A DNA stretch of 64,000 bases from positions 186,001 through 250,000 of the forward strand of contig JADGCV010000001.1 of NCBI GenBank assembly GCA_015228815.1, in the 5' to 3' direction. The translations under genes were made by a program, and so were the position numbers. The stretch's first letter is position 1; every line of letters begins with the position of its first letter. The stretch is from Magnetococcales bacterium (GTDB lineage Bacteria; Pseudomonadota; Magnetococcia; Magnetococcales; UBA8363). This document shows, piece by piece, positions 47,699-54,818 of the stretch. The notes beneath the pieces are model-generated. The model saw nothing but the letters and a program-made list of their open reading frames with translations. It was not told the origin of the DNA and did no database searches.

Positions 47699-47868
47699 TC
47701 CTTGCTTGTCACATTCCCCTGGATCCGGGACAGCATGATCGTCCCGGATCCAGAAAATGTTTGCGCTCCGGAAAAATGATTGTTGATCTTTCTCTGGTCC
47801 GGTATCAGAATGACATGGACAATTGTCGTTCATAATTTTCAGACTGTGAAGTATCCATTGGGGTCGGC

Positions 47869-49221
47869 ATGCCATCAAAACATAATCATGATCGGCCTTT
47901 GATTCCTTTGTGTTTTGTCCTCATGCCTTTCGGAAAGAAATCCGATCGAGGGGTGCGAGTGATTGATTTCGACCGCGTTTATAGCGAAATCATCGCCCCC
48001 GCGATCATAAGGGCAGGAATGGATCCCATTCGTGCCGACGAGGAACAGACCGGAGGGATCATTCACAAGGCGATGTTCGAACGTCTTATGTTGTGCGATT
48101 ATGCCATCGCTGATCTGACCACGGCCAACGCCAATGTTTTCTATGAATTGGGGATTCGCCACGGCATTCGACCGCAGAGTACAATACTGATCCATGGCGC
48201 GACGATGAATCTTCCATTCGATGTGGCGCCACTTCGGAGCCTTTCTTATCACCTGGATTTTGAGGGCAATCCCGCGAAACCCAAGGATGATTGTGAACAT
48301 CTCGCGAAATTGCTGGAACAATGCCGTAATCCGGTTGCCGACAGTCCGCTCTTTCAACTGATTTCAGACTTTCCTCCCCCCGACATCGCCCGCCTCCGGA
48401 CCGATCTTTTCCGTGATCGGGTCGCCTATGCCCAGGGCTGCAAGGAGCGGCTCGCGATCGCCCGGAAAGAAGGGGAACCGGCGGTGGCGGCATTCGAGAA
48501 TGAAATCAATCTTCGCGAGGCGGAACCTGCCATCATCATTGATCTTTTTCTTTCCTACCGTGCGGTTTCGGCATGGCAAAGGATGGTCGAACTGGTCGAA
48601 CGGATGCCCGGACCGGTTGCGAATGCGGTACTGGTACGCGAACAGCTTGGATTGGCCCTCAATCGTCTGGGGCGGCGCGACGAGGCGGAACGGGTCCTGC
48701 GGCAGGTCATCGAAACACACGGTCCCAGCAGCGAAACCAACGGAATCCTGGGACGGGTTTTCAAGGATCGATGGGACGAAGCGGTGAAAACGGGAAAAAA
48801 GGCCGTGGCGGATGGTTTTTTGCGCCAGGCCATCGAAACCTACCTGGCCGGTTTCGAAGCGGACTGGCGCGACGCCTATCCGGGGATCAACGCAGTCACC
48901 CTGATGGAAATGGCCAATCCGGTGGATGCACGTCAGGGGGCGTTGCTGCCCGTGGTCGGTTATGCGGTCAAGAGACGACTTTCGGGAAAGAGGCCCGATT
49001 ATTGGGATCATGCCACTTTATTGGAATTGCATGTCCTTGGCCGGGATCGTGCCGCCGCGGAAGTGGCATTGGCCGATGCCCTGGCAACGGTGCGGGAATC
49101 CTTTGAACCACAGACGACAGCGCGGAATCTGTCTCTGATTCGTCGCGCCCGCGAGGATCGAGGAGAGGACCAGGAGTGGGTCCGGTCGATCGAACGGGAA
49201 CTGGAAGGTGTGCGTTTCTGA
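47869..49221 (+). CDS. NDT/TIR-like nucleotide domain fused to TRAFs-binding (TPR-S) scaffold
   Basis: A 450-residue protein. Residues 15-150 form a Rossmann-like domain of the nucleoside-deoxyribosyltransferase/TIR-like kind: CFVLMPFGKK, FDRVYSEIIAPAI, and DYAIADLTTANANVFYELG, whose Glu93 is the likely catalytic residue. Residues 200-450 are helical repeats matching the TRAFs-binding (DUF4071, TPR-S) family, with AYPGINA at 336-342 and YWDHATLLELHVLG. That scaffold is known from animal ASK kinases and from predicted bacterial conflict systems, where it is proposed to read NAD-derived signals. The next gene shares the scaffold, 61 bases downstream, so this is probably its signalling partner. 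Confidence 0.82.
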   Translation: MPSKHNHDRPLIPLCFVLMPFGKKSDRGVRVIDFDRVYSEIIAPAIIRAGMDPIRADEEQTGGIIHKAMFERLMLCDYAIADLTTANANVFYELGIRHGIRPQSTILIHGATMNLPFDVAPLRSLSYHLDFEGNPAKPKDDCEHLAKLLEQCRNPVADSPLFQLISDFPPPDIARLRTDLFRDRVAYAQGCKERLAIARKEGEPAVAAFENEINLREAEPAIIIDLFLSYRAVSAWQRMVELVERMPGPVANAVLVREQLGLALNRLGRRDEAERVLRQVIETHGPSSETNGILGRVFKDRWDEAVKTGKKAVADGFLRQAIETYLAGFEADWRDAYPGINAVTLMEMANPVDARQGALLPVVGYAVKRRLSGKRPDYWDHATLLELHVLGRDRAAAEVALADALATVRESFEPQTTARNLSLIRRAREDRGEDQEWVRSIERELEGVRF

Positions 49222-49282
49222 ATCACGGGCACATGCAAGCCGAAATTCATGGGAAAAAACATCGGGGGGGGATCAGCAAAAC

Positions 49283-51922
49283 ATGTCGAAAAACAACGAT
49301 GAATCGGAAAAGGAATTCAATGAGGCGCGATTGCAGGCCAACGAAATCCTGTCGGGGAAGAGGCAGGGTTTTAACGTTCGGGAACTGATCGGGATCGCCG
49401 AACGATTGCGCGGCACGAGACAATTCGTACTGGCGCGACAACTGCTCGATCCAGAACGTCATGCGTCACTTCTGACAGGGGAACCGGAACGGCAGGCGTT
49501 CCATTCAGCCCGGGCCGTGGCCATCTACAAAGATCCGGAGCTGCTTGACGACCTCAAACTCGATCAGGCGTTGCACGACCTGAAGAAAAACCTGGACCTT
49601 GACGTTGCCGAAGATCCGGAACTCCTTGGTGTGGCCGGAGCGATCTGCAAGCGCAAGTGGGAGACGACCGGGCACCTGCACGACCTGAAGGAAGCGCTCA
49701 CGTACTATCTTCGTGGTTGGAACACGAGTACACGGTCGGAATCGAAGGTTGACCGAAGTTATCCGGGAATCAATGCAGCCTTCATTCTTGATCTTCTCGC
49801 CACCCGGAACAAGGAAACTTCAGGAAAAAATAAAGTCCTGGGGACGATGGCCGATCAAAGCCAATCCGAAGCGAAGAAGATTCGCGAGGAGATCATCCGC
49901 CTTGAATCGACCGGAAGAAGGGATGACTACTGGCATCTGGTGACCATGGCGGAGGCGCATCTTGGCCTGGGCTTGGTGGCGGACGCCTCTTTCGAGGCAA
50001 ACCATTTTGATCGGGCACGGGCGTTCCTTGAAGAAGCCGCTGGATTGACGGCCATACCCCTATGGCAGAGGGAGACGACCGTCCGTCAATTGTCACGCCT
50101 GATCCGCCTGCACCAACCCGAACTCACGCCGCGGACCATTGGCGATTCGGCGGCGGGACAGGCGGTACGAGCACTGATCGACAACCAGACGGCCCCTCTG
50201 GAGACAGCCTTTTCCGGAAAAATTGGCCTGGCCCTTTCGGGAGGTGGTTTCCGGGCATCATTGTTTCATATCGGTGTTTTGGCGCGATTGGCGGAACTCG
50301 ACCTGTTGCGGCGGCTGGATTGTATTTCGTGTGTTTCCGGCGGATCGATCATTGGCGCCCATTATTATCTGGAACTGCGTCATCTGTTGCAGAGCAAAGC
50401 GGACGGAGCGATCACCCACCAGGACTATATCGATCTGGTCGATCGTGTCGCCAAGGATTTTCTCGCCGGAGTACAGCGCAATCCGCGAACCCTCGTGGCG
50501 GCCAATCTGTTCGCCAATCTCAAGATGATGTTCAGCAAAAACTACTCTCGAACCACCCGTCTTGGAGAATTGTACGAGAAGGAATTGTTTGCCAGAGTTG
50601 CCGACGAAGGCCGGGACCGCCCCCGATTCATGTCCGATTTGAAAATCACCCCTTTGAATGCCAAGGGGGCGCGGGAAAACGATTTTTCGCCGCGGGAGCA
50701 AAACTGGCTGCGTTGCAACAAGGTACCGATTCTTTCCTTGAATGCGACCACGCTCAATACAGGGCACAACTGGCAATTCACCGCCTCCTGGATGGGAGAA
50801 CCCCCGGGCGGCATCGATTGCGAGGTCGATGCCAACTATCGGCTGCGACGGATGTATTATGAGCAGGCGCCCGAGCCCTTCAAAAAAATTCGCCTGGGTG
50901 AAGCGGTTGCCGCTTCATCGTGCGTGCCGGGATTGTTCGAGCCGGTCACATTGGACAAACTTTATCCCGACAAGACTGTTCGTCTCGTCGATGGCGGCGT
51001 CCACGACAATCAAGGGGCGGGGGTACTCCTTGAGCAAGGTTGTTCCGTGATCATCGTCAGTGATGCCAGTGGCCAGATGGAGGCAGACGACACTCCTGGC
51101 CATGGAATCCTGCCGGTTGCCCTGCGTTCCAACAGCATTCTCCAGGCCCGGGTCCGCGAGGCCCAGTTTCGCGAATTGGATGCCCGTACCCGCAGCGGTC
51201 TTTTGGAAGGTTTTGTCTTCCTTCACTTCAAGAAGGATCTTTACGGGGAAGATATTTCCTGGAGCGGATCCACCGATTCTGTCCCGGTCGCTTCGACCCG
51301 GACAAAGACCTGTTATGGCATTCTGACCGAGGTACAACGTCTTTTGGCGGCCATCCGCACCGATCTTGATTCTTTTTCGGAGATGGAAGGCCATGCCCTC
51401 ATGGTCAGTGGTTACCGCATGGCCGAAAACTTTCTCGCCAAAAGCCCTGTCCTGACCAACCTGGCGGCGACACCGCTTCCCGACTGGCGTTTTGATCGAT
51501 GGTCTTTTTCCAACATCGAACCCCAGATGACCGACCCGGATCGTGCCACGGAGCTTGTCCGCCATCTGAAGGTTTCACAGATTCAGTTTTTAAAGGTCTG
51601 GCATCTCTCTCCCATACTGAATGCTTTACGAAAAGTGGGCATGCCAATCATCATGGCAATCGTTTGCCTTCTTGCTATTATCTTTTGGAATGTTGAACTG
51701 ACGATTCCATTGCCAACGGTAGGAACCATCGCCCTGTGGCTGCTTCCATTGATTGCCGTTGGTCTCACCGGATGGAAAATCTTTGGAATGCTTGATTTTC
51801 GTTCCTGGGTGCGAAAGCTGGCCATTGCCCTCGTAACGGCAACTCTGGGATGGTTGCTGGTCACGGTGCATCTTTGGGTGTTTGATAAATTGTTTCTTTT
51901 TCATGGACGGGTACGTCGTTAA
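49283..51922 (+). CDS. TRAFs-binding (TPR-S) scaffold fused to patatin-like phospholipase with membrane tail
   Basis: An 879-residue protein. Residues 1-300 are the same helical scaffold as the preceding gene (SYPGINAAFILDLL at 159-172, YWHLVTMAEAHLGLG). A patatin-like lipase follows: oxyanion loop LALSGGGFRASLFH (317-329), nucleophile Ser352 in SCVSGGSIIG and Asp570 in LVDGGVHDNQG, the Ser-Asp dyad. Three hydrophobic helices close it (about 785-803, 810-829, 845-866), placing the lipase at a membrane. It probably attacks membrane lipids once activated. Start MSKNNDESEK at 49283, with a G-rich site upstream. Confidence 0.88.
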   Translation: MSKNNDESEKEFNEARLQANEILSGKRQGFNVRELIGIAERLRGTRQFVLARQLLDPERHASLLTGEPERQAFHSARAVAIYKDPELLDDLKLDQALHDLKKNLDLDVAEDPELLGVAGAICKRKWETTGHLHDLKEALTYYLRGWNTSTRSESKVDRSYPGINAAFILDLLATRNKETSGKNKVLGTMADQSQSEAKKIREEIIRLESTGRRDDYWHLVTMAEAHLGLGLVADASFEANHFDRARAFLEEAAGLTAIPLWQRETTVRQLSRLIRLHQPELTPRTIGDSAAGQAVRALIDNQTAPLETAFSGKIGLALSGGGFRASLFHIGVLARLAELDLLRRLDCISCVSGGSIIGAHYYLELRHLLQSKADGAITHQDYIDLVDRVAKDFLAGVQRNPRTLVAANLFANLKMMFSKNYSRTTRLGELYEKELFARVADEGRDRPRFMSDLKITPLNAKGARENDFSPREQNWLRCNKVPILSLNATTLNTGHNWQFTASWMGEPPGGIDCEVDANYRLRRMYYEQAPEPFKKIRLGEAVAASSCVPGLFEPVTLDKLYPDKTVRLVDGGVHDNQGAGVLLEQGCSVIIVSDASGQMEADDTPGHGILPVALRSNSILQARVREAQFRELDARTRSGLLEGFVFLHFKKDLYGEDISWSGSTDSVPVASTRTKTCYGILTEVQRLLAAIRTDLDSFSEMEGHALMVSGYRMAENFLAKSPVLTNLAATPLPDWRFDRWSFSNIEPQMTDPDRATELVRHLKVSQIQFLKVWHLSPILNALRKVGMPIIMAIVCLLAIIFWNVELTIPLPTVGTIALWLLPLIAVGLTGWKIFGMLDFRSWVRKLAIALVTATLGWLLVTVHLWVFDKLFLFHGRVRR

Positions 51923-51992
51923 ACTCCTGTTTCACTATTGTGGAAATCCATAGGGAGAAATTGATATACTGTTACCAATGGGAGATTTAGAA

Positions 51993-52292
51993 ATGGGAAT
52001 ATCCTGGAATTCTGCTGTGGAAGGTACTTCTGGGCTTTGGTATAAGTCCGGAGTCGATGATGACGGCCAATGCCATCTGCTCGTTGCCGAAAATAGAAGA
52101 GGTGTTGAGGTTAATGGTGGAAGCCATGATCACTACTGGAAGAGGGATGGAAGCTATTATGTTCAGTTAAGGGATCGCAGTGGCACTGCTTTAGCCGCAG
52201 GCAAAAAAGGCCATATATTTGAACGCGATACAAAATTTTCAGGTATCGATAAATACCTAGATGGCTTGTTTTCTCGATACTGCTCGTGCTAA
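51993..52292 (+). CDS. Small hypothetical protein downstream of the patatin gene
   Basis: A 99-residue protein, MGISWNSAVEGTSGLWYKSG, rich in Gly, Asp and aromatic residues, with a mainly beta look and ending in RYCSC. GGGAG lies eight bases before the ATG at 51993, so translation is likely; an ATG at 51978 overlaps that site. It lies 70 bases after the patatin gene on the same strand and is more AT-rich than its neighbours, which hints at separate origin. It could be a third member of the module. No family recognised. Confidence 0.55.
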   Translation: MGISWNSAVEGTSGLWYKSGVDDDGQCHLLVAENRRGVEVNGGSHDHYWKRDGSYYVQLRDRSGTALAAGKKGHIFERDTKFSGIDKYLDGLFSRYCSC

Positions 52293-52333
52293 AATTTCAG
52301 AGACTGGAATTTCGCGGACAGTATACAATATAG

Positions 52334-52766
52334 TAACTGCCCAGGTACCCCCAGGGCCCAGAATTATTGAAAGAAAAAAGGGGTCTGGGGGATTGCCCCC
52401 AGGGTTTTGATTTTGTTTTTTACGCGCCATTTCACCCGAAGCAAGATTCCCGCGTGATTTTTGCGGGAATCTTGCGTAGGCGCGCGCCTTGGTCCCGATC
52501 TTTTCGCGGTTTTTGCGAAAAGACCAGGACACATTGCAAGTTTTCAGGCCTTTCAACCTGCAAGACGTTTGCCCTTCTTCGCAAAAACCGCGAAGAAGGG
52601 CAAACCAAGGCGCGCGCCTACGCGGTTTCTCGCAAAAACCACGCGAGAAACCGCTTCGGGTGAAATGGCGCGTAAAAAACAAAGTCAAAATCAAAACCCT
52701 GGGGGCAATCCCCCAGACCCCTTTTTTCTTTCAATAATCTCGAACCGGGGGGTACCTGGGCAGTTA
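52334..52766. repeat. 433-bp imperfect palindrome with four covarying hairpins
   Basis: Two inverted arms. Outer ends TAACTGCCCAGGTACCCCC (52334-52352; complement 52748-52766) are followed inward by the dispersed hairpin repeat in opposite orientations, then a perfect 26-bp match (52415-52440 with 52655-52680). Each arm then has a hairpin, a shared linker (52476-52492 with 52605-52621) and a second hairpin. Stems: 52441-52453/52463-52475 (13 bp), 52499-52507/52515-52523 (9 bp), 52568-52582/52590-52604 (15 bp), 52622-52633/52643-52654 (12 bp). The centre is AGGCCT at 52546-52551. Apex and linker sequences match between arms but the stems do not. Confidence 0.9.
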
Positions 52767-52776
52767 CACAATATAT

Positions 52777-53099: not shown

Positions 53100-54818
53100 T
53101 CAATGGTCAAGAAGCCAACGGGTCAGGAAAAGACGCGCCCGGGCATCACTGGTGATGGCGTGCATCAGGGCATGGGGGCTTGTGGCGGAACGTACACATT
53201 CATCGTAACGCTCGCCGTTCCAGGCTCGATGAGCCGCAAGCAGCCGGTGGTCCATCCGCTGAAGTGCCGCCCGAAGCGGGTCGGCATGCCATCGACGCCA
53301 TACCTGGTCTCCATCCTCGAACACGTTTCCCATCCAAAGATGAATGGCACCGAACACCGTCACCGTTCCATCCCGCCAGATCATGGGATCGGTATCGAAG
53401 GGTTCGACAACCACCTCCTTTCCATCGAGCCATCCTTCCAACAACCGCCCCTCATGAACATATTCGCCGCGCTCCATAAGCCTGGCACGGCCCATGGCAT
53501 CGATACAGGAACTGAAAAAATAAAACGTCATCTTACCAGAGGTGCCCATGAGGGTGACCTGGGCCTCGCGAATCACGCCACCCTGTTTGCCGGGGTGGCC
53601 AGGATATTCCTTGAGGCGGGGTGAGGTCTGCCATTGGATGTCCGTCACCGCCCAACCACGTCGTTCAAGTTCATCGTTCAAACGACCCCACACTCCCTTC
53701 TGAAAAAGGCGGGTTGAAAAATTTAATATGTTTTGCTTGTGAATCAGAGAGACCGAACAATCCGCCCGCTCCCCCTGGGCCAAAAGCAGCCGGGCAACAT
53801 GGGCCACGGGAATCCGCTCCTTGAGGGCGCCATGCCGATCGGCAATCATTTCCTGATGATATTCATCAAAACTGATCTGCACCTGGACCCGGGCAGGGGC
53901 AAAGGAGGAGGGCCTTCGATCCAGGGCGCGATACAACCCGGCGAAAAATTGTCGGGCCGCCTCCCGGGAATGCGCCAGCCGTGCATTGAGAAGGATGGCA
54001 AACGTTTCCACCCGATCCATGGTGGCAATCGCCTGATGAAACAGCTCAAGATCAGGCGTCAAATCGCCACCGGTAAACAAAAGATTGCGTCCCCGGCGAT
54101 TGATGGCCGCCAACAACGGAGCGCTTTCGTGAACAGTTTTCATCGGTGGCCGCCAGATGAACATGCAGTGGCGACAGGATTCGGGGCAGGAAAACCTGGG
54201 AACGAAACCCATCTTGTCCCAACAGGGTACCGGACGATCAAGATGGATCAAGCCATCCACCAAGGCGATTCGTTCGCGATCATCGGCCCCGCCCACGGCG
54301 TTCAAGATTTCCTTTTCCCTGGCGCCGACGCGACGCACCTCCTGTTGACGATCACGGGCAAAGCCGCCAAGCCGACGCCACCGGTCCGCCAACTCCGCGA
54401 CGAATCGCTCCAGTTCTCCCGGTTCGTCCATGCCCGAAATGGCAATGTCGCCAATCGGCAACCGGTTCCGCCGTTCCAGGAACCAGCGGATCAGCGTGGC
54501 ATCCTCGTCCCACGGCGCCGCCTCCAGCAGCCAGGAGGAAACAGGCGGGGAAAGGCCGGCGGTATCGATAAACCGCGCAACCCAAGGCCGATACAAAGAA
54601 TGAACTTCCCGTTCCAACCAACGGCGGGCATACACCAATCCCAGGATCACCCCTTCCTTTTCCGAAAGGTGCCGGACAAAGTGACGTCGCGCCGCCACCA
54701 GACGGTTTCCGTGCCACTGAATATACGGGTCCAAGAGTGTCGGAACAATTGTGGGGGTCGGAGAAAAATCATTCCAACCGGACCCATCTTCAATCGTTTT
54801 TCCGTCGATCGTTGCCAA
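53100..54818 (-). CDS. Radical SAM protein of unknown substrate
   Basis: A 572-residue protein. The [4Fe-4S] motif is CPESCRHC (Cys211, 215, 218; CxxxCxxC), followed by LLFTGGDLTPDLELFHQAI, the GGE-like SAM-binding motif. About 200 N-terminal residues of helical sequence precede the radical SAM domain and about 150 follow; no C-terminal SPASM Cys cluster is visible. The start is probably a TTG inside the end of the upstream glycosyltransferase gene (29-base overlap), so the two are translationally coupled. The product is unknown. Confidence 0.85.
   Translation of the reverse strand: MATIDGKTIEDGSGWNDFSPTPTIVPTLLDPYIQWHGNRLVAARRHFVRHLSEKEGVILGLVYARRWLEREVHSLYRPWVARFIDTAGLSPPVSSWLLEAAPWDEDATLIRWFLERRNRLPIGDIAISGMDEPGELERFVAELADRWRRLGGFARDRQQEVRRVGAREKEILNAVGGADDRERIALVDGLIHLDRPVPCWDKMGFVPRFSCPESCRHCMFIWRPPMKTVHESAPLLAAINRRGRNLLFTGGDLTPDLELFHQAIATMDRVETFAILLNARLAHSREAARQFFAGLYRALDRRPSSFAPARVQVQISFDEYHQEMIADRHGALKERIPVAHVARLLLAQGERADCSVSLIHKQNILNFSTRLFQKGVWGRLNDELERRGWAVTDIQWQTSPRLKEYPGHPGKQGGVIREAQVTLMGTSGKMTFYFFSSCIDAMGRARLMERGEYVHEGRLLEGWLDGKEVVVEPFDTDPMIWRDGTVTVFGAIHLWMGNVFEDGDQVWRRWHADPLRAALQRMDHRLLAAHRAWNGERYDECVRSATSPHALMHAITSDARARLFLTRWLLDH

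Follow-up and report, generated by a model that had tools for sequence, protein, structure and literature searches.

A TPR-S enzyme–lipase gene pair in a Magnetococcales bacterium: a candidate two-gene nucleotide-signal module with an exchangeable effector

Conflict systems built on the TPR-S domain were reportedly predicted by Burroughs and Aravind in 2020 (J Bacteriol, 10.1128/JB.00365-20), with NAD-derived ligands proposed for them. PMC9503650 cites their paper. The term TPR-S itself was not encountered in the literature searched. In the predicted systems, TPR-S (PF20308; ‘sensor’ is part of its Pfam name) is joined to effector domains and is the proposed sensor of NAD-derived signals. A two-gene nucleotide-signal logic is also that of Thoeris (ThsB TIR and ThsA), and CBASS with a CapV-type patatin has a nucleotide-gated patatin effector. 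The N-terminal regulatory half of human ASK1/MAP3K5 (PDB 8qgy, 5ulm) consists of an NDT-like domain followed by a TPR/TRAFs-binding region.

Here we describe two adjacent genes, P1 and P2, from a Magnetococcales bacterium. They lie in a stretch of 64,000 nucleotides, the whole of the DNA analysed, which we refer to as the window. P1 is collinear with the ASK1 half. As in the predicted TPR-S systems, TPR-S is joined to effector domains, but here the enzyme and the lipase are separate proteins, both of which have a TPR-S. Compared with Thoeris, the module is devoid of ThsB_TIR (a ThsB TIR partner was not found in the genome), and neither P1 nor P2 contains SIR2 or SLOG; its putative sensor is TPR-S and its effector a patatin. 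Compared with CBASS, the patatin is fused to TPR-S and no CD-NTase was detected among P1, P2 and the third ORF. PADLOC did not report any system matching the module.

An ORF check recovered all three ORFs that the original prediction had placed here (Table 1). The most likely start of P2, judged from the sequence, is ATG 49283: this codon is accompanied by a Shine-Dalgarno-like, G-rich stretch and agrees with the Ser352 numbering of that prediction. With the alternative start, GTG 49208, P2 would overlap the end of P1. The small third ORF starts at ATG 51978 or 51993.

Table 1. Features of the module, in positions of the window.
Feature	Position	Strand	Size and basis
P1 (NDT/DNPH1-type domain and TPR-S/TRAFs-binding scaffold)	47869-49221	+	450 aa; PF13281, PF20308
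P1 N-terminal NDT/DNPH1-like domain	47902-48258	+	about aa 12-130; profile match to DNPH1/Rcl, PF05014
P1 Glu93 codon in NVFYELG, presumed catalytic	48145-48147	+	orthologue conservation, alignment with DNPH1 ELG
P1 TPR-S domain	48574-48906	+	aa 236-346; PF20308
P2 (TPR-S, patatin and C-terminal membrane helices)	49283-51922	+	879 aa; PF20308, PF01734
P2 TPR-S domain	49475-49786	+	PF20308 at 90-193 in the GTG-start frame
P2 patatin domain	50228-51019	+	PF01734
P2 Ser352 codon	50336-50338	+	patatin nucleophile, five-homologue alignment
P2 Asp570 codon	50990-50992	+	Asp of patatin DGG, five-homologue alignment
P2 three hydrophobic segments	51614-51883	+	Kyte-Doolittle windows above 1.6
99-aa ORF, probably passenger	51993-52292	+	without Pfam, PADLOC or NCBIfam match
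Accessory insertion, ends approximate	47700-52776		no such segment at this site in four genomes of the same genus

The common scaffold was identified by Pfam searches as TRAFs-binding/TPR-S in P1 (PF13281 MAP3K_TRAF_bd, 1.2e-34; PF20308, 2.4e-25) and as TPR-S in P2 (PF20308, 8e-13), where it precedes the patatin domain (PF01734, 5.1e-20). The TPR-S scores of 89.5 bits for P1 and 49.3 bits for P2 both exceed the curated PF20308 cut-off of 27.6 bits. Direct comparison of the two scaffolds gave 27% identity over 171 aa (E 1e-6), spanning the YPGINA and YW blocks from which a helical scaffold common to both genes had been predicted. Chance does not account for these domain matches, since curated cut-offs are exceeded by wide margins and homologues with 40–65% identity are found in many genomes. 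In these loci, effector and nucleotide-processing enzymes share a chain with TPR-S or are encoded next to it, an arrangement by which TPR-S modules are recognised.

The N-terminal domain of P1 had been described as NDT/TIR-like. By itself, the domain of the window stays below the Pfam cut-off for NDT, and its family match comes through a profile and through relatives: a profile of 13 diverse N-terminal domains matched DNPH1/Rcl at 1.2e-5, and six of the 13 matched PF05014 (nucleoside deoxyribosyltransferase) singly, the best at 7.6e-6. Matches to TIR families were weak (CAP12/PCTIR TIR, 0.11 for the window and 0.019 for the best of the 13). One TIR-labelled PADLOC model matched P1 at 1.9e-7, and hhalign against ThsB-type TIRs gave a probability of 3%. 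A canonical TIR was not adopted as the main assignment in view of this ThsB-type comparison, the DNPH1 match and the weak TIR-family matches. As judged by the DNPH1 and PF05014 matches, the domain is of NDT/DNPH1 type, a fold family akin to TIR, so that the NDT half of the earlier description is supported, with Glu93 in place, and a canonical TIR is less likely.

Glu93 is kept in 16 of 17 close P1 orthologues (Asn in the remaining one). It is invariant across the 13 diverse domains and aligns with the ELG of DNPH1, and this presumed catalytic residue, together with the profile match, places P1 in the NDT/DNPH1 superfamily. Almost all bacterial members, even distant ones, have retained it, which argues for catalysis. 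DNPH1/Rcl and nucleoside 2-deoxyribosyltransferases (PF05014) have a similar domain with the catalytic Glu aligned, but in P1 this domain is fused to TPR-S. DNPH1/Rcl is a 2'-deoxynucleoside 5'-phosphate N-hydrolase; its substrates are dNMPs, not NAD+, which counts against an NAD+ reading of P1. Phages of Streptococcus, Staphylococcus and Dorea (hits H56-H75) encode the NDT-like N-terminal domain of P1, their matches being confined to this domain with the TPR-S part unmatched. These genes perhaps represent prophage-borne defence.

In P2, the GGGxR oxyanion motif, the SGG and DGG motifs, Ser352 and Asp570 are those of a patatin phospholipase and are invariant in five P2 patatin homologues; P2 homologues are 38–40% identical. 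Hydropathy analysis revealed three hydrophobic segments at residues 778-868. The Ser-Asp patatin and the three membrane helices of the original prediction are thus both seen, but the helices are not a constant family feature, as they are missing from three other TPR-S patatins (L037, L038 and L047). An AlphaFold model of P2, computed from a single sequence, was discarded (pLDDT 44). A search of viral contigs with the P2 family profile did not reveal any relatives, and P2 was not found in phages. The third ORF, proposed earlier as a regulator, gave weak hits elsewhere, and no homologue turned up at any other P1 locus examined; a role as regulator is thus not supported.

The recurrence of the pair was analysed in 48 genomes of the order, counting as P1-type the genes with a TPR-S score above 90 bits. 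Seven such genes occur in six genomes, and six of them directly adjoin a second TPR-S gene; the co-occurrence therefore extends beyond this genome. Neither of the two computational checks that could have refuted the original prediction, on the identity of the scaffold and on co-occurrence, went against it. Under the rough assumption of three TPR-S genes per 3800, random placement would produce such pairing with a chance of about 1e-16. The partner is a patatin in three cases (G000, G047:C60, G029) and an alpha/beta hydrolase in the other three (G042, G039, G047:C18), and Pfam detects patatin in the partner genes of L037 (G047) and L038 (G029) and alpha/beta hydrolase in those of L034, L035 and L036. 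A further P1–hydrolase pair is present in an Azospirillum metagenome-assembled genome (L003). The effector gene lies upstream of P1 in relatives and downstream in the window. The exception among the seven is the Asn variant (L033, genome G011), which has no TPR-S neighbour; an alpha/beta-hydrolase-like TPR-S gene is located on another contig of that genome.

In the P1 tree, the window P1 groups with the hydrolase-paired L003 with strong support, apart from the other patatin-paired P1 proteins. The supported branches force at least two partner changes, indicating that P1 is constant while the hydrolase is swapped. Cyclase and effector are swapped likewise in CBASS. The P1/hydrolase pair of G042 is followed by a gene for a NARF (nucleotidyltransferase-associated Rossmannoid) domain protein (L035, 8306-9325). 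Plain patatins without TPR-S are encoded beside or near P1-like genes (L130, 9423-12042; L117, 13061-14203), and on a Rhizobium leguminosarum plasmid one directly precedes a second P1-like gene. The plain patatins suggest that the lipase link is independent of the fusion.

The pair is part of an accessory segment. Between a LysR-type gene and the gene at 53100-54818, the window has 5793 bp, compared with 855–1437 bp in four relatives (G041, G042, G043, G047). About 5 kb are absent at the same site in these genomes; the flanking DNA is homologous up to about 47634 and again from 52777 on, and most of the four also have the two small ORFs of the flanks. In the phylum sample of 398 genomes, eight carry P1-type genes, two of which are partial or distant matches. 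At its right edge, the module is bordered by a 435-bp imperfect palindromic, MITE-like repeat (52333-52767), of which the genome contains dozens of full or partial copies (98 matches, both strands counted). As one of many genome copies, this repeat shows no link to the module and was rejected as its mobilising element. The immediate neighbourhood in the window looks like housekeeping genes rather than a defence island, which counts against an immune reading.

We regard it as about evenly balanced that P1 and P2 form a two-gene abortive-infection module in which a nucleotide signal is produced or processed by P1 and the P2 lipase is gated through TPR-S. An infection cue would reach P1, whose NDT/DNPH1-type domain would use Glu93 to cleave the glycosidic bond in NAD+ or a related nucleotide. 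The TPR-S scaffold of P1 may bind the nucleotide product or regulate the enzyme. The N-terminal TPR-S of P2 would recognise the same nucleotide, or product-loaded P1, and the patatin would be released to hydrolyse membrane phospholipids, with the C-terminal helices anchoring P2 and the cell dying as a result. P1 would be the constant component and P2 the exchangeable effector of a horizontally acquired module. The logic of nucleotide-gated immunity is suggested by the constant enzyme-sensor and the exchangeable hydrolase with the same sensor; pairing in six of seven cases, at least two partner changes, the conserved Glu, defence neighbours on plasmids, the patchy distribution and the empty site all favour the module.

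Distant relatives of P1 keep defence company, as a neighbourhood survey for defence context revealed. On plasmids of Pseudomonas, Acinetobacter, Vibrio, Lacticaseibacillus, E. coli, Klebsiella, Rhizobium, Neorhizobium and Agrobacterium, TIR genes are found one to a few genes away from P1-like genes, and relatives of P1 adjoin TIR genes of the ThsB type, as in Thoeris. Plasmid-borne P1-like genes are also flanked by SLATT 2TM effectors and a cassette with QueC, OGG and TGT, ancillary components known from type IV CBASS. The neighbour annotated as DUF4231 belongs to SLATT_3/SLATT_1, proteins predicted to act as 2TM effectors in nucleotide-signal systems.

These dedicated TIR enzymes beside P1 in several relatives count against P1 as the signal maker and make P1 a possible effector. 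The main rival to the two-gene signal module is accordingly a Thoeris-like arrangement, which we rate as somewhat unlikely: a TIR encoded elsewhere would make the NAD-derived signal, and P1 (by NDT-type nucleotide or NAD depletion) and P2 (as lipase) would be parallel TPR-S-sensing effectors. On plasmids of Pseudomonas, Acinetobacter, Vibrio, Klebsiella and E. coli, a P1-like NDT–TPR-S protein encoded with at least one small TIR gene is indeed the sole, or nearly sole, candidate effector, and the genome of the window has three TIR_2 genes on other contigs. However, a ThsB-type TIR (PF08937) was found neither near the pair nor anywhere in this genome. Two of the TIR_2 proteins (L121 and L122, contigs C9 and C6) carry, read by eye, formylglycine-generating-enzyme-type (FGE) domains; they look like parts of other systems and are probably separate conflict genes. 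The patatin pair of G029 (L038) has, also by eye, no TIR-like gene in the flanks listed. The pair is thus either self-contained or served in trans. A self-contained, TIR-free two-gene immune system, in which a new signal comes from an active NDT/DNPH1-type enzyme fused to TPR-S and is read by a TPR-S lipase, would be an enzymatically live bacterial counterpart of the ASK1 regulatory half, with exchangeable lipases; we put this forward tentatively, as a possibility short of even.

The cassette beside P1-like genes comprises four genes, for a TIR–TGT (Cap10-like) fusion, OGG (Cap11-like), QueC (Cap9-like) and a small ThsB-type TIR. It was found in L004 (1848-5121), L034 (12531-15500), L036 (3755-6900), L050 (3456-6618), L051 (3460-6623) and L117 (4604-7744), and also in L128 and L131. 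In six of six sequences read, the ThsB-type TIR begins with Met and a glycine run (MGGGGGGG..., MGGGSSGS...). The cassette looks like a TIR counterpart of type IV CBASS, the TIR rather than a CD-NTase being the predicted acceptor of N-terminal deazaguanylation; the QueC-family literature searched does not mention TIR. On four Rhizobiaceae plasmids, a gene for a PfkB-type sugar/nucleoside kinase is located between cassette and P1-like gene (L050, 6685-7818; L051, 6690-7871; L128, 4665-5816; L131, 4638-5786). This kinase might phosphorylate a nucleotide signal. On the Aliarcobacter cryaerophilus plasmid pM830MA (L047, 7733-21150), a P1 homologue, three TIR proteins and a P2-like patatin are encoded within 14 kb. 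PMC6690266 interpreted this patatin and one TIR as virulence genes; defence is the likelier function.

The kinship with ASK1 bears on a further alternative. A profile of 17 P1 orthologues matched human ASK1 (8qgy) at 4.6e-21. The match covers positions 63-415, which begin midway in the enzyme domain and take in the scaffold. The first four PDB matches of a Foldseek search with the AlphaFold model of P1 (pLDDT 81, pTM 0.62; low around residues 93-100 and 155-176) are ASK1. P1 shares with the ASK/MAP3K family the NDT-like domain followed by a TRAFs-binding TPR region; a serine/threonine kinase domain was not detected by Pfam in P1, P2 or the third ORF. ASK1 has FYHLG where the bacterial proteins have FYELG and so lacks the catalytic Glu, and its kinase is in the same chain, whereas the effector of the window module is a separate lipase. 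Such a Glu-free regulatory platform as the closest solved relative, and the loss of Glu in the orthologue L033, would fit gating by protein contact: P1 would inhibit P2 by TPR-S/TPR-S contact until a protein or redox cue leads to its release, as for thioredoxin and ASK1, with another role for Glu93. We consider this improbable, since almost all bacterial members retain Glu and no TPR-S effector gene adjoins L033. A non-immune pair of lipid-remodelling enzyme and nucleotide-salvage partner is less probable still, even though patatins and DNPH1/NDT enzymes include housekeeping members and the neighbours in the window look like genes of that kind, given the accessory insertion, patchy distribution, plasmid carriage, TIR/SLATT/QueC association and effector swapping. 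Both rank below the two-gene signal module and the Thoeris-like arrangement.

The two-gene signal module had been proposed as a possible undescribed subtype. The split arrangement with two TPR-S proteins makes this plausible, but TPR-S modules as such have already been predicted, and the split enzyme and swapped lipase, each with TPR-S, are best called a variant of the predicted class rather than a new class. The comparison shows that the enzyme-sensor stays constant while its effector is exchanged, a patatin in some loci and an alpha/beta hydrolase in others. If the proposal is true, the pair would offer a small system, open to testing, for finding the ligand of the TPR-S sensor, and NDT/DNPH1-type enzymes would be a further source of immune nucleotide signals beside TIR and CD-NTase enzymes. 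It would also provide a test of the proposal that the stress-kinase platform of ASK1 descends from bacterial nucleotide-gated immunity.
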